From: Pseudomonadaceae bacterium
GTDB taxonomy: Bacteria > Pseudomonadota > Gammaproteobacteria > Pseudomonadales > Azotimanducaceae
Reading direction: 5' to 3'
Assembly: GCA_024743175.1 (NCBI GenBank)
Contig: JANSXA010000004.1
Location: 1 to 64,000, forward strand
DNA: 64,000 bases
Made by a program: the position numbers and the translations under genes. Each line of letters begins with the position of its first letter. The stretch's first letter is position 1. This document shows positions 14,373 to 23,048 of this stretch, in pieces. The notes below the pieces were generated by a model. The model had not been told where the DNA came from. It did no database searches and saw only the letters and a program-made list of their open reading frames with translations.

Positions 14373-15299
14373 ATGGAATCAACGCAAAAGCCACAAACCT
14401 GGATGATTACCGGTGCAAACGGCAACCTGGGTAAGCGTTTGATCAGTGAAATACTGAGCGATAACAACAGTGAGGTTGTTGCGGTGGTTCGCAGTGCTCG
14501 TGCTCAGCATGAAATCGAATCGCTGGAGCTCGATGCTGATAAGGTCGCACGGCTTGAAGTCAAAGTGCTCAACTACGACGATGTGGCGGCGTTGACAGAG
14601 GTGGCCCAAGGTTGTGATAAGGCTGTACATCTGGTGGGTATTCTCAAAGAAACCAAAATGGCCAACTATTTTGATGCGCACGAAGCGAGCACCAGTGCGC
14701 TTCTGCAGGCGCTGGAGAACTCGACGGTTAAACATCTCACCTATCTGTCGATAGTGGGCTCAACACCCGATTCGAACAACGCGTGTCTTGCTTCTAAAGG
14801 TCGAGCTGAACAGCTCTGTCTCAAACATAACCTTGCCACCTGCGTTTTGCGGGTGCCCATGGTGCTGGGGGAAGGAGATTACGCCAGTTTTGCTCTGCGT
14901 AAACGCGCTCAAGCCGGACGCAGTATTACCTTTCGCGCAGACAGTATGGAGCAACCGATATATGCCGGTGATGTGGTGCGGGCGGTTATTGCCGCGGGTA
15001 CCAGAGAGATTGATGGAGACCTGAACCTGGCCGGACCGGAAGTCTTGAGCCGGCGTGCTTTAACTGAACGCGCAGCTGCCATTGTAGGTGGTGGCGGCAA
15101 AGTGGTTTCCCTGCCTCTGGGTCTCGGGCTGGGTATGGCCGGGCTGTTTGAGACGTTCATGGCTAATCCACCGGTGACAAAGGCGATGCTCGAGGTACTA
15201 GACCACGATGACGAGGTTGACCCGCAGGCGGCCTGTCAGGCGCTGGGACTTGAGGCATTGACGCCGTTGGATGACATGTTGAAGGCGGTGCTGAGTTAA
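14373..15299 (+). CDS. NmrA-like NAD(P)-binding protein
   Basis: A ~308-residue atypical short-chain dehydrogenase. The Rossmann motif TWMITGANGNLGKRL lies at the N-terminus, with VHLVGILKETKM and HLTYLSIVGS further on. It lacks a clear YxxxK catalytic pair, as in NmrA/complex-I-assembly type SDRs that bind NAD(P) and act as sensors or quinone reductases. The ATG at 14373 puts the nucleotide motif close to the N-terminus; 14334 and 14367 are other in-frame starts. The end overlaps the convergent esterase by 4 bp. Confidence 0.8.
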   Translation: MESTQKPQTWMITGANGNLGKRLISEILSDNNSEVVAVVRSARAQHEIESLELDADKVARLEVKVLNYDDVAALTEVAQGCDKAVHLVGILKETKMANYFDAHEASTSALLQALENSTVKHLTYLSIVGSTPDSNNACLASKGRAEQLCLKHNLATCVLRVPMVLGEGDYASFALRKRAQAGRSITFRADSMEQPIYAGDVVRAVIAAGTREIDGDLNLAGPEVLSRRALTERAAAIVGGGGKVVSLPLGLGLGMAGLFETFMANPPVTKAMLEVLDHDDEVDPQAACQALGLEALTPLDDMLKAVLS

Positions 15300-16390
15300 G
15301 CGATCCGCCTGGCCAGGAAAGGCAGGCTTAAGTCCATACGATAATCAATCCCACTGTGGTTATCGTTAAACTCCTCATAGCGGTGCGCAATGTTGTGTTT
15401 GTGCAGTTGCTCGGACAACAGACGACTGCCGAAGTGGATGTGGTACTGGTCCCGCCAGCCACAGTCGATATAAATACCACGCAGGGTTTTCAGATTATCT
15501 TTGTATTGCCCGACCATATGTATGGGGTCGTGTTTGAGCCACTTTTCCCAGCGTTTTGGCAGGAGTTCACCGGTATTCAGATCAAAAGGCAGGCGAAACC
15601 CTCCTGAGACTTTAGGGTCCGGGTCGTAGGTAGCGGCCATGCAGATCATCATAAGCGTTGTGATATCACTTCCGCTGGGTTTTTCATTGGACCAGCAATG
15701 CTCCAGAAAGCGTTTCACGCGACCATCGTCAATGCCGGGTTTGCTCTCCCGCGCGATACGTTTGCGGGTACCTGGTTTCAGTGCCGGTTCAACAAAGTTC
15801 TGCAGGCTGGTCAAAACCTGGGGCCACTCGGATTTATAAACGAAATCAAAATAGGCATCCCCGGAATGATTGCCTACGGCACCCCAGTACTTGGCATACT
15901 TCATGCCATGCACAATGGCGCCATAACCTCCGGATGATTTACCAAAACAGGCACGATGTTCACGGCTGCCCAGAGTGCGCAGCGTTTTGTCGACAAACGG
16001 AATCAGTTCCCTGGTCAGGTAATCGGCATAGCGTCCGATGGCGCTCGAGTTGATGTACTGATTGCCGCCCAGGGCGGTAAAACAGTCCGGGAAAACCACG
16101 ACACACGGCGGCATTTTCTTTTCGCTGATAAGGCGATCCAGTCTTTCCGGCACGTTTTCATCAAAACTGCGCCAACCGACATGGGAAGGACCGGAACCGG
16201 TGTATCCCACCAGATCAAAAAGCACGGGAAAACGCCGATTTCGATAGCGCGGTTCGTCATACGCTGCCGGAATGTAGATGGGCAGCGTTCGTGTAGCCGG
16301 GTCTTCAAGTGGATTGTCAGCAAGGATGCGGGAACAGTGCTCTTCAAAAATCAGACGGCCAGCCCGGGCGACAGGCGTTTTTCGTGCCAT
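15296..16390 (-). CDS. Alpha/beta hydrolase, putative esterase (EstD/S-formylglutathione-hydrolase-like fold)
   Basis: A 364-residue putative esterase-family protein. CFGKSSGGYGAIVHG holds the GxSxG nucleophile, VLFDLVGYTGSG the oxyanion strand, CVVVFPDC an early strand, and the C-terminal EFNDNHSGIDYR the catalytic His. No signal peptide. The ATG at 16390 has AGGACA upstream and is preferred over 16423. Natural substrate unknown; relatives cleave short esters or ferric enterobactin. Confidence 0.82.
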   Translation of the reverse strand: MARKTPVARAGRLIFEEHCSRILADNPLEDPATRTLPIYIPAAYDEPRYRNRRFPVLFDLVGYTGSGPSHVGWRSFDENVPERLDRLISEKKMPPCVVVFPDCFTALGGNQYINSSAIGRYADYLTRELIPFVDKTLRTLGSREHRACFGKSSGGYGAIVHGMKYAKYWGAVGNHSGDAYFDFVYKSEWPQVLTSLQNFVEPALKPGTRKRIARESKPGIDDGRVKRFLEHCWSNEKPSGSDITTLMMICMAATYDPDPKVSGGFRLPFDLNTGELLPKRWEKWLKHDPIHMVGQYKDNLKTLRGIYIDCGWRDQYHIHFGSRLLSEQLHKHNIAHRYEEFNDNHSGIDYRMDLSLPFLARRIA

Positions 16391-16572
16391 GTTGGTCTTG
16401 TCCTGATGAAAAGCGTAAAGCATACCGTATTCCGCTTGAGGTCACGCTTTGTTAGGGTTCTGGCAGGCGCAGCGTGATACAGGTCGCAAAAGCTCAACCG
16501 CCGGATTCAAGAAACGGTCCTAATCGGTTAGCTTGGCGATTCGCCGTGACAGTTGTGAATGGACACACACTT

Positions 16573-19120: not shown

Positions 19121-20851
19121 TCAGCCGCGCTTTGTCAACTGTTGCAGTATCTCTTCCCAGTACTGGTAGAAAACTGCAGAGCCGTGGTTTCCAAATACCC
19201 GCAGCTCAAAATCCAGACCCTTAAGTTCAGCCAGCAGATTGTCGAGCGGGCTCAGCGTGTCATCTTCTCCATGCCAGACAGATACAGAAGCGCTGATCGT
19301 GTTGAGGTCAATTTTTTCCGGGTGAGTCAGGCAGCGTATCTCGCCGGCGATGCCACTGGCTGAAACCACAAGACTTTCCAGAGATGCCTTCACCATGTGT
19401 TCAAGTACTTCTGGATTTGCTGCAAAAAACCTTTTGTCAGAATCAGCAGAACAATAGAATCTTCGAATCAATGCCCGATTTGTACTTTCTGTTGCGCGGC
19501 TCCGCAAAATGTTGAAAAACGTTGTCAGCAGCCAGGGCTGCTTTGATAGATGTTGACGCAGCGCCGTAATAGAACCGCCATCGGCGTGGTTGTATCCCGC
19601 AGGACCACGCCCGCTAACCAGCATCAGGTGTTTAACGCGACTGCGCAGGCGCGCTGCAGCGGCAAGCGCATGAGCTGCACCGGCGAGAAATCCCAACAGT
19701 GAAACTTCGTTGATGCTCAGAGCATTCATTAAATCTTCAATGTCGGCTGAAGTAGTCTCAAACGTGTATTGATCAACAGGATCAGAAAAACCAGTGCCGG
19801 GTCTTTCGACGGCAATCAGTTTAAGTCCCAGCTGACTTGCCAGAGCTTCTGTACCGGGCAGTAACCTCGAGCAGCCCACCGACTCATGGAAATAGATCAC
19901 TGTCTTCTCACCCTCACCATAGGTGCGATAAGCCAGCCTGCGGGGCTTGTCGCCCCTGGAAATGATGACAAACTGATGTTGTGGGTACTGATCGGTTGAG
20001 ACCAGTTCAGCAGTTGGGTCAGCCGGACCCGCGATTACAGACAAAATCACCTGTAGCTGGGTCATCATCAGAATCAGATCGCCCTGACGATTTATTTTAG
20101 TTTTTTCAAAAACGGCCTGTAGCTGGTTGCGAACAGTATTTGGGCTGATGTTCAGTGCCTTTGCTATTTGTTTCAGCTGTAAACCACTGTTCAGGTGTTG
20201 GCAGATTTCACTTTCCGCAGGCGTCAGCCCGAAGCTTGTTTGTAGGACACGTGTAGCCTGTGTGCTGGTAGAGCTGGGGGCAATCAGGAAGCCTGCGTCT
20301 ACGTTCTTGTTTTGCAGGTTAAACGCTGCGGGCAGGTCATCTGCAGCCACCATATATCCGTAGCGTGAAGTTGTTCCAGTGCCATGTAGACTGACAAGTG
20401 CATGGCGTTGTTTTCGAGCAGTGACAGCTGCCAGAGCCTGATCAAACTCTGCGGCGGAGGCTGGGTCAATAAATGTAAGGCTTTCACCCTCGATAGAGCA
20501 GTAGTTACTCAATGAGCCGTTTTGCTCGCTGGCTTCGACAATGCAGGCATTGTTGTCCAACAGGAAATAGTGACAGCCCACGTAGCTGTTCTGCTGGCCG
20601 GATTCACCGCGTAGCTGCCAGGCCAGTGTTTCAGCCTGGCTCAATGTGGTTAACAGTTGAGTTGGATCCAGCGCCTCAATTTTCTGACCATCACGATTCA
20701 GCGCCTGAGCAAATGCTTCCCAGGCTGTGGGGTCCAGGGCATAGCCGATCAGCGCATCAATAAAACCCGCCGGTAATGCATCAGTTGAGTCAGATTTTAA
20801 CAACGCCTGTCGGCTCCATTTTATTTGCAGCGGCAATCGACGCGAACTCAT
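19121..20851 (-). CDS. LuxR-type transcriptional regulator fused to an alpha/beta-hydrolase-like domain
   Basis: 576 residues in three parts. Residues ~1-190 form a PAS-like sensor (HYFLLDNNACIVEASEQN) of the kind found before LuxR HTH domains. Residues ~200-275 are the HTH: FGLTPAESEICQHLNSGL, then IAKALNISPNTVRNQLQAVF. Residues ~290-576 form an alpha/beta hydrolase: YFHESVGCSRLLPG, AVERPGTGFSDP, the elbow LLGFLAGAAHAL, WHGEDDTLSP and FGNHGS. The acid and His remain, but the nucleophile position is Leu where GxSxG is expected. This suggests a ligand sensor rather than an enzyme. GTG at 20872 and TTG at 20854 are other starts. Confidence 0.82.
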   Translation of the reverse strand: MSSRRLPLQIKWSRQALLKSDSTDALPAGFIDALIGYALDPTAWEAFAQALNRDGQKIEALDPTQLLTTLSQAETLAWQLRGESGQQNSYVGCHYFLLDNNACIVEASEQNGSLSNYCSIEGESLTFIDPASAAEFDQALAAVTARKQRHALVSLHGTGTTSRYGYMVAADDLPAAFNLQNKNVDAGFLIAPSSTSTQATRVLQTSFGLTPAESEICQHLNSGLQLKQIAKALNISPNTVRNQLQAVFEKTKINRQGDLILMMTQLQVILSVIAGPADPTAELVSTDQYPQHQFVIISRGDKPRRLAYRTYGEGEKTVIYFHESVGCSRLLPGTEALASQLGLKLIAVERPGTGFSDPVDQYTFETTSADIEDLMNALSINEVSLLGFLAGAAHALAAAARLRSRVKHLMLVSGRGPAGYNHADGGSITALRQHLSKQPWLLTTFFNILRSRATESTNRALIRRFYCSADSDKRFFAANPEVLEHMVKASLESLVVSASGIAGEIRCLTHPEKIDLNTISASVSVWHGEDDTLSPLDNLLAELKGLDFELRVFGNHGSAVFYQYWEEILQQLTKRG

Positions 20852-20961
20852 CAATGTACCTGCCCAATCCACCTCAGACCAGGTTTGAGCGGCAAAATCA
20901 GGGTTTCACATTACCAGATGGCCTCGTTATGATGGAGATCTTCCAGCCATCAGCAGGGGTT

Positions 20962-21195
20962 ATGGATAACCAAATTTCGCCCGAAAAGCGGCTTTCGTCT
21001 GAGCACACAGAATTGCCGGATGATGACAATCGTCGCAGCGAATCGGATCGCAGAGCTGAAGATCGTCGCCGCAGTGCACAAGGTTTGTTTGAATTGCGCG
21101 CGCGACGTGATCGTGTGGTAGAAGACCGGCGCCGTATTGATCGCCGTGACGGTCCCCGCTGGCGGCTCGCTTTCTGGCGTCGCAACGAAACCTGA
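20962..21195 (+). CDS. Small Arg/Asp-rich protein, unknown function
   Basis: 77 residues from the ATG at 20962, which follows CAGGGGTT. The composition is striking: NRRSESDRRAEDRRRSAQ and DRVVEDRRRIDRRDGPRW, with repeated D-R-R units, ending LAFWRRNET. Similar DRR-rich tails occur in small uncharacterised proteobacterial proteins; no function is known to me. It runs divergently from the LuxR-hydrolase gene; the frame is open further upstream (ATGs at 20929 and 20932), but those starts lack a ribosome binding site. Confidence 0.6.
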   Translation: MDNQISPEKRLSSEHTELPDDDNRRSESDRRAEDRRRSAQGLFELRARRDRVVEDRRRIDRRDGPRWRLAFWRRNET

Positions 21196-21318
21196 AACAT
21201 CTGTATTCGACACGTTCTTCAACGTGCCGCAAAAGCAACGTAAAAATACCCCTCCCAACGGCGCCATCGTGCTGAATATCGGCTAAAATCCGCGCCTCTC
21301 TTTTTTCAAGGAATGGTC

Positions 21319-21954
21319 ATGGCGCGTTGGGTTTTGCAACTGGTTGTATTAGGTGCAGGCATATTGGGCGGTTATTCATCAGCTGTGGCTGGCGATGCTG
21401 AGGCGGGCAAAAGCCTTTATCCGGTTTGTACAGCCTGCCATGGTCCAACGGGGCTCGGTAACCAGGCGATGAATGCACCAAAGCTTGCCGGCCAGGAACC
21501 CTGGTATATCGTTAAACAAATGCAACTGTTCCAGAATGGCGCTCGTGGTACAGCGCCTGGCGATATGCACGGCATGCAGATGGCAATGATGTCAAAAGGA
21601 CCTCAACTTGCTGGTGAGGAGGCACTGCAGAATCTCGCAGCCTACATCGGCACTTTCCAGGATGCAGACGTACCCGAAACAGTCAGCGGTGATGTTGCCG
21701 CAGGAAAAACCCTCTACACCACATGTGCGGCCTGTCACGGCCCAGCAGGTCAGGGTGTTGAAGCCATGGCTGGACCTAAACTTGCCGGACAGAGCGACTG
21801 GTATCTGGTCAATCAGCTGAACAAATTCAAGCAGGGGCAGCGTGGCTACCACAACATGGACCATGGTGGTCGGCAAATGCGTCCCATGGTCGCAACGTTG
21901 GTAGACGACAAAGCGATCAATGATGTTGTCGCTTACATCAATGCGCTGAAGTAG
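21319..21954 (+). CDS. Diheme cytochrome c (c4-like)
   Basis: 211 residues with a signal peptide (VLQLVVLGAGILGGYSSAVAG) and two tandem cytochrome c domains. Each has a heme site, VCTACHGPTG near residue 36 and TCAACHGPAG near 136, each followed by PKLAGQ and a later Met-containing segment (MMSKGPQLAG, MRPMVATL) that can supply the distal ligand. A periplasmic electron carrier. AAGGA is 6 nt before the ATG at 21319; the ATG at 21313 is too close to it. Alanine racemase follows 26 bp later. Confidence 0.92.
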   Translation: MARWVLQLVVLGAGILGGYSSAVAGDAEAGKSLYPVCTACHGPTGLGNQAMNAPKLAGQEPWYIVKQMQLFQNGARGTAPGDMHGMQMAMMSKGPQLAGEEALQNLAAYIGTFQDADVPETVSGDVAAGKTLYTTCAACHGPAGQGVEAMAGPKLAGQSDWYLVNQLNKFKQGQRGYHNMDHGGRQMRPMVATLVDDKAINDVVAYINALK

Positions 21955-21980
21955 CTGCTACCCATGTGCTCAGAAGCGTT

Positions 21981-23048
21981 ATGACCAGCCGGTTGTCGAT
22001 ATCGCTCGGCAACTTGGCAGCAAATTACCAGCTGCTGCGTAAGCACAATAACGGACCGGTAGCAGCTGTCGTGAAAGCAGATGGTTACGGCCTTGGCAGC
22101 GTTGCTGTTGCGCGACGCCTGCTGCGCGAAGGTTGTGATCGTTTTTTTGTCGCAACACCTGAAGAAGGTACAGATCTGCGCTCGGGCCTTGATGCAGTTG
22201 ATGCTCGACAGGTTAAAATATACGTGCTGTCCGGGGTTTACTCTGAAGTGCTGCCGCTGTTCACCAGCCATAATCTTACGCCGGTGCTGAACTCAACAGA
22301 ACAGATTCAAACCTGGTCGCCCCTGCAACGTCCGGCTGCTCTACATTTTGACAGCGGTATGCATCGACTGGGATTGCCGCTGCAGCCGGCAGACTATATC
22401 GGGTTGCCGTTCGACGTTGAGCTGTTTGTCAGCCATTTTGCAAATGCGGATGAGCGGAAACACCCGTCTATCAGGGAACAGCAGGAGCGTGCGCTGTCCT
22501 GTTACTCAATGCTGCATGAACACTACCCGGAGATGCAGTTCAGCCTGTCCAATTCAGCTGGCGTGTTGCATGACCTTGATGTTCCGCAACTCGCCAGAGC
22601 AGGAATTGCATTGTACGGCGGCAATCCATTTGTAGATGAAGACAACCCGCTGTTACCGGTTGCTCGATTGCAGGCAAAGGTGCTGCAGGTTCGGACGCTG
22701 CCGCCAGGCACGTCAATTGGTTACGGAGCAAGCTATACAACCAGCGAAGAAACCGAAGTAGCCACGCTTGGTGTGGGTTATGCTGATGGTGTGCCACGCC
22801 TTTTGTCCGGCAGAGGCAACGTCTGGTTTGCCTCAGGACAGGCGCCGATGGTGGGACGGATCAGTATGGATCTGATCACCGTTGACGTTTCTGGTTTGTC
22901 GGTGAGCGCTGGCGAGTGGGCGGAAATTTTCGGTCCGAACATCAGTATCGATGAAGTGGCGTCCCAGGCTCAAACCATCAGTTACGAAATTCTCACTGGC
23001 TTAGGCCGTCGTTCAGAACGGGTCTATCTTGAAGGGATGTTGACGTAG
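21981..23048 (+). CDS. alr: Alanine racemase
   Basis: A 355-residue PLP enzyme that interconverts L- and D-alanine for peptidoglycan. AAVVKADGYGLG carries the PLP Lys; SIGYGASYTTSEET carries the second catalytic base Tyr; RISMDLITVDVSG and GPNISIDEVA complete the C-terminal beta domain. Length is normal. A GTG at 21966 is also in frame. The 3' end overlaps the convergent TPR gene by 56 bp. Alanine dehydrogenase lies 2 kb downstream, so two alanine enzymes are close but not in one operon. Confidence 0.94.
   Translation: MTSRLSISLGNLAANYQLLRKHNNGPVAAVVKADGYGLGSVAVARRLLREGCDRFFVATPEEGTDLRSGLDAVDARQVKIYVLSGVYSEVLPLFTSHNLTPVLNSTEQIQTWSPLQRPAALHFDSGMHRLGLPLQPADYIGLPFDVELFVSHFANADERKHPSIREQQERALSCYSMLHEHYPEMQFSLSNSAGVLHDLDVPQLARAGIALYGGNPFVDEDNPLLPVARLQAKVLQVRTLPPGTSIGYGASYTTSEETEVATLGVGYADGVPRLLSGRGNVWFASGQAPMVGRISMDLITVDVSGLSVSAGEWAEIFGPNISIDEVASQAQTISYEILTGLGRRSERVYLEGMLT

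Follow-up and report, generated by a model that had tools for sequence, protein, structure and literature searches.

On the reverse strand of contig JANSXA010000004.1 (assembly GCA_024743175.1), from a bacterium of the family Azotimanducaceae, lies a gene whose product joins three domains in one chain: a PAS-like domain, a helix-turn-helix (HTH) of the LuxR/GerE type, and a complete alpha/beta-hydrolase (ABH) domain. The first 64,000 nucleotides of the contig, here called the window, were analyzed following a sequence-only reading that had described the product as a PAS-like sensor and a LuxR HTH fused to a complete hydrolase-like domain, and all three domains were recovered (Table 1). Read from the GTG at 20872, the product has 583 residues; a TTG at 20801-20803 is the probable start, which would give a product of about 560 residues. 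The model of the N-terminal part resembles PAS domains, with helices at residues 35-88 ahead of the domain. The HTH matches PF00196 at 34.7 bits against a family cut-off of 23.5, and the third domain has the fold of the alpha/beta-hydrolase superfamily, with a helical cap, or lid, that bears the conserved motif PW..-FFNILR.R. Pfam includes an autoinducer-binding family, and no Pfam match to such a domain was found upstream of the HTH in the window protein at E <= 1, which sets the protein apart from the LuxR regulators of acyl-homoserine lactone quorum sensing. No NCBIfam family names the whole protein, the best 25 of 27 matches all being far below cut-off.

Table 1. Features of the fusion gene and its surroundings (window coordinates; residue numbers count from the GTG).
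Feature	Position	Strand	Remarks
PAS-LuxR HTH-ABH fusion gene	19121..20872	-	from GTG
PAS-like domain, about residues 92-202	20267..20599	-
LuxR/GerE HTH, residues 216-270	20063..20227	-	Pfam PF00196
ABH domain, residues 298-583	19124..19981	-	follows the HTH
His329-Glu330 of the oxyanion loop	19883..19888	-	from alignment
Nucleophile elbow, Gly394-Phe395-Leu396-Ala397-Gly398	19679..19693	-	Leu for Ser; from alignments and model
Arg422, loop after strand 413-419	19607..19609	-	from alignment; strand from model
Helical cap (lid), residues 434-501	19370..19573	-	from model and alignment
Catalytic-acid position, Asp538	19259..19261	-
His loop, His563-Gly564-Ser565	19178..19186	-	from alignment
Divergent intergenic region	20804..20928	.	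likeliest operator place
Small Arg/Asp-rich open reading frame (ORF)	20929..21195	+	no Pfam family; mechanical ORF begins at 20776, start provisional
Di-domain cytochrome c	21313..21954	+	divergent neighbor
Alanine racemase	21966..23048	+
Coiled-coil-like protein, 875 residues	16474-19101	+	tail-to-tail with the regulator; in 8 of 13 orthologous loci
Esterase-family (PF00756) protein	15296-16423	-	beyond the coiled-coil gene; in 5 of 13 orthologous loci

By membership, the protein is a LuxR/GerE-type regulator carrying a domain of ABH fold in which two of the three catalytic residues, the nucleophile and the His, are lost and the acid is present. The nucleophile elbow is modeled between strand 390-395 and helix 398-412. 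Leu396 of this elbow is aligned by phmmer with the Ser in the sequence GWSDGG of valacyclovir hydrolase, other alignments concur, and residues 394-398 contain no Ser, as the sequence-only reading had noticed. That reading also took the catalytic acid and the catalytic His to be kept. The former holds, since Asp538 is present here and in 12 of the 13 members of the clade defined below. The latter does not: the His of FGNHGS, His563, falls in a variable column, and the catalytic column is filled by Ser565, as seen when N-H-G-S-A of the window protein is aligned with D-W-G-H-F of the triad-bearing relative L008.

Among 206 genomes searched in the family, the window's own included, 19 had matches at E <= 1e-10. 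Orthologues (L036-L048; 32-49% identity) occur in 13 of the 205 other genomes, which are metagenome-assembled genomes titled Pseudomonadales, Pseudomonadaceae, or Gammaproteobacteria. Twelve of these orthologues are full length and L043 ends at a contig end. An alignment query of genome contigs returned 26 loci, 13 of them orthologues that are the same genes as L036-L048 and are counted once, and a single-sequence scan of genome contigs yielded 35 stretches with no relative among them. The clade of 13 consists of the members with a complete ABH domain, including the window protein and excluding L043. Its nucleophile column holds Leu in nine members and Val, Ala, Ile, and Met in one each (L043 has Phe), and the following column, 397, holds Ser in 12 of 13, the window protein alone having Ala. 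At column 563 the letters are Ala (7), Trp (2), His, Cys, Ser, and Lys (1 each), while the catalytic-His column, 565, contains Ser (8), Ala (3), or Thr (2) and His in none. The sequence-only reading would have been refuted by fusion homologues that all have Ser at the elbow, or by a structural model with another Ser there; none of the 13 orthologues has Ser at this position, the modeled elbow of the window protein has none at residues 394-398, and the case for a pseudo-hydrolase is stronger than that reading knew, with both nucleophile and His gone throughout the clade. A sequencing error at the elbow is ruled out, because the 13 orthologues likewise have no Ser there.

Two residues in the loops of the former active site never vary within the clade and are seldom seen outside it. 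Glu330, in the oxyanion loop, is present in 13/13 clade members, in 0/51 other fusion rows, and in 0/25 rows sorted as stand-alone hydrolases, 22 of which have Gly; the corresponding counts for Arg422 are 13/13, 4/51, and 0/25. The six loops at the active-site ends of the strands have a mean column identity of 0.677, higher than both the whole ABH domain (0.578) and the opposite end (0.459), and in a circular-shift test 13 of 285 shifts, the unshifted one counted, were as good. This average is carried by three loops, the oxyanion loop (0.756), the elbow (0.786), and a further one (0.811). In enzymes of the ABH fold, the oxyanion loop and the elbow line the active site. The domain has 34 invariant positions across the 13 rows, and among the three domains the HTH varies least, with a mean column identity of 0.731 for residues 213-275. 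The ABH domain has a ratio of nonsynonymous to synonymous substitution rates (dN/dS) of 0.108 in the pair L038/L039 and 0.272 in L044/L046 (dS 0.92), and whole-gene values in three pairs are 0.129, 0.136, and 0.318. The ABH domain is maintained by purifying selection in these relatives, on two pairs for the domain itself.

The genes for cytochrome c and alanine racemase both lie across the divergent intergenic region from the regulator and recur in 9 and 10 of the 13 orthologous loci, respectively; these counts, like those in Table 1, are lower bounds because several loci end early (L065, L072, L075, and L076 stop at contig ends). Pfam families in the window include cytochrome c, alanine racemase, an Lrp/AsnC regulator, and alanine dehydrogenase. 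Together, the conserved divergent neighbors and this context point to the divergent unit as a candidate target of the regulator, perhaps with an involvement of alanine metabolism. The product of the small ORF is rich in DRR repeats, and 5 of the 13 orthologous loci contain a similar ORF of at least 90 residues. By eye, window positions 20804-20961 and the upstream regions of L064-L066 contain on the divergent strand a promoter-like pair, TTCACA/TTTACA and TATGAT/TATTAT separated by 17 bases, which would serve the unit of small ORF and cytochrome c. Also by eye, a long inverted repeat, CTAGGGAGCCTCTGATTAAGTCTCA plus its reverse complement, was seen upstream of the fusion gene in L066 and in slightly changed form in L068; it lies between the divergent genes and resembles a small mobile element. 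On the other side of the regulator, the coiled-coil-like protein has a weak C-terminal helix-hairpin-helix match that is under cut-off.

It is proposed that the fusion protein regulates transcription as a one-component system, its former serine hydrolase domain now serving as a non-catalytic ligand receptor, a reading considered reasonably probable. Its computed basis consists of the domains, the clade-wide loss of the nucleophile and the catalytic His, the loop conservation with Glu330 and Arg422, and the purifying selection in relatives; a receptor function fits the clade-specific residues conserved in old active-site loops and this selection. The ligand would be a small molecule bound in the pocket beneath the helical lid, probably one whose polar or charged group contacts Glu330, Arg422, and Asp538. 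On closure of the lid the HTH dimer would adopt a different pose, and transcription would change in response, above all from the divergent promoter in front of the unit of small ORF, cytochrome c, and alanine racemase. The PAS-like domain may provide a second input or act as a dimerization part.

Several points weigh against this proposal. Half of the six loops on the active face do not exceed the domain mean of 0.578, with values of 0.44 for the acid loop, 0.56 for the one that follows strand 413-419, and 0.573 for the His loop. The alignment of the loop around Arg422 against distant fusions is uncertain. The putative pocket is placed from strand ends and alignment. The pair of the window protein and L036 is saturated, leaving no dN/dS for the window protein itself, and the gene occurs patchily among the other genomes of the family. 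No operator palindrome stood out in the nine of 14 upstream regions covered, since 32 of 100 shuffles did as well as the best one of the window, and 11-94 of 100 as well as those of the other eight. Finally, conservation of the loops would also be expected if this face bound another protein or a domain of its own chain.

That last point leads to a non-catalytic protein-protein or dimerization module, which would dock on a partner, or on the PAS or HTH of its own dimer, without any small molecule. A docking face suits the lost triad and the conserved surface loops; however, the oxyanion loop and the elbow, which line the active site in enzymes of the fold, are among the most conserved, and Glu330 and Arg422 are specific to the clade. 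This alternative is judged unlikely, though not negligibly so. Plant hydrolase-fold receptors do work through partners, as in the pairing of GID1 with DELLA and of DAD2 with PhMAX2A (sections of PMC3531792).

The domain might instead still be an enzyme that acts through other residues, such as His329/Glu330, Asp538, or the Ser397 of the orthologues, making the whole an enzyme-regulator. The retention of Asp538 in 12 of 13, the Ser that all clade members but the window protein have at column 397, and the existence of other fusions with a full triad (Ser-Asp-His in 14/64 rows and Cys-Asp-His in 3/64) agree with residual catalysis. Yet the window protein has Ala397, the flanking Gly394 and Gly398 frame Leu396 and not residue 397, and the catalytic-His column is without His in 13/13, which leaves this explanation improbable. 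Least credible is a decaying remnant behind a PAS domain and HTH that alone matter. Triad residues do drift to many letters among the fusions, but twelve orthologues have the entire ABH domain and the thirteenth is cut by a contig end; no same-locus relative without the domain was found in the 13 loci, L043/L072 being the one cut short; and the dN/dS of both pairs and the invariant positions stand against decay. Decay was rejected on dN/dS and domain completeness and is given only a very slight chance.

In PAS-LuxR regulators such as VqmA (PDB 6ugl, 6ide, and 6kju) the HTH is C-terminal with nothing after it, whereas in the window protein it is central, with the complete ABH domain (about 285 residues) behind it. 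Among enzymes, the nearest are esterases and C-C hydrolases that stand alone (9wlv, BphD, MhpC, and a P. fluorescens esterase), from which the window protein differs by Leu in place of the nucleophile Ser and by a Ser in the His column. The gibberellin receptor GID1, as portrayed in sections of PMC3531792, is a ligand receptor of ABH fold with a helical lid that lacks the catalytic His and keeps Ser and Asp. The window protein would resemble it in having a receptor role, here predicted, under a helical lid in a hydrolase fold that has lost catalytic residues; it differs in having lost Ser and His and in that the receptor would sit inside a transcription factor. The likeness to GID1 is an analogy, and the protein is no member of the GID1 group. 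To our knowledge, no fusion of GID1 to a DNA-binding domain is known. The hydrolase fold is also used in signaling by bacterial RsbQ, and we know of no one-chain transcription regulator among RsbQ, DAD2/D14, and KAI2. In the same sections of PMC3531792, the strigolactone/karrikin receptors DAD2/D14 and KAI2 use the fold in signaling, as is proposed for the window protein, and DAD2 keeps all three triad residues.

The fusion extends well beyond the clade. Matches were found in 22/390 genomes at the order level (E <= 1e-15), in 42/369 at the class level (E <= 1e-40), and in 34/398 at the phylum level (E <= 1e-60); these totals include the window's own genome and hydrolases without an HTH, and many rows cover the full model. 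From 66 distinct fusion frames, the triad table leaves out L043 and the fragment L063:2782-3678, giving 64 rows that represent 63 genes, since L053:2725-4188 and L060:973-2772 are one gene. As the loci were chosen, among the matches listed, for their resemblance either to the window protein or to alignment A2, the proportions of triad states are not an unbiased census. With this in mind, the nucleophile column holds Ser in 15 rows, Cys in 13, Leu in 11, Val in 10, Met in 4, Ala and Thr in 3 each, Gly in 2, and Asp, Ile, and Tyr in 1 each, and the combination Cys-Asp-Arg occurs in 10 rows besides the full triads mentioned above. Eleven further phylum-level loci, roughly added to the alignment, show mixed states, three with Ser-Asp-His. 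The Ser-Asp-His fusions (L008, L009, L029-L031, L049-L051, L056, L057, L059, and L091-L093) have the same HTH-ABH order, match the same profiles, and measure 556-624 residues (L049, 783); their triad is still enzyme-like, whereas in the window clade two of its three residues are gone and Glu330 and Arg422 are present.

All 21 stand-alone hydrolases kept for the ABH tree are Ser-Asp-His, after removal from 25 rows of the fusion fragments A_L055 and A_L060 and the partial or weak A_L002 and A_L025 (Cys-Asp-His). The tree, built on 84 of 89 rows without these four and the doubled L053 and with the trait columns left out, supports the window's clade of 13 at 100/92 and parts fusions from stand-alone hydrolases by one branch with support of just 93/59; it has long branches of unsure placement and two joined pairs of long branches. 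At least seven changes are required at the nucleophile, and likewise seven at minimum for the intact triad, a count that alone cannot separate gain from loss; with Ser ancestral, as in the outgroup, the nucleophile changes read as repeated losses. A tight Cys-Asp-Arg subfamily (L012, L013, L017-L020, L026, L028, L033, and L034, from the order-level search) has a Cys nucleophile and Arg at the His position, and its oxyanion loop reads DN or EN where HG would stand; this is a further, separate re-working of the site. Close same-strand pairs of fusion genes were seen in at least three genomes (L131:2103-3827 with L131:5231-6994; L009 with L030 on G004:C5; L015 with L031 on G151:C46), the G151 pair having Cys as nucleophile in one copy and Ser in the other. 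The neighbors of other fusion loci had no common theme among ten proteins from five of seven regions. A plasmid search gave 68 matching records, none with 80% of the query at one place, and no full fusion among the 15 matches listed.

The sequence-only reading had called the architecture one not known as described. It is no one-off, belonging to a widespread family in which some members retain Ser-Asp-His, and no LuxR-ABH regulator or non-catalytic ABH sensor was described among the matches listed in the open PMC literature, as judged from titles and abstract beginnings, with subscription papers mostly outside. Portions of PMC9601222 treat the hydrolase RcgR and the membrane protein RcgA as separate proteins, with no fusion, and the available text of PMC3466318 has no word beginning with "hydrolase". 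For PMC2447327, the search index counts LuxR four times and "hydrolase fold" twice, whereas its short readable text has hits in the references only, and the negative does not extend to that paper.

A broader picture is put forward tentatively, with a chance of holding that falls a little short of even. In this picture, LuxR-ABH fusions form a family of bacterial regulators of the one-component type that is widespread but undescribed and carries an enzyme domain behind a LuxR HTH. On several independent occasions the catalytic site of that domain would have been abandoned and remodeled into a receptor pocket; the window clade would be one such conversion, marked by Glu330 and Arg422, and a single-chain bacterial counterpart of the gibberellin receptor. 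Since the divergent neighbor genes are conserved, the questions of ligand and target are directly testable. If the picture is true, bacteria converted hydrolases to transcriptional receptors within one chain, and did so more than once. The Ser-Asp-His cousins within the same family would then provide a natural enzyme-to-receptor series for asking how enzymes become sensors, and the family would be a possible source of new biosensors.
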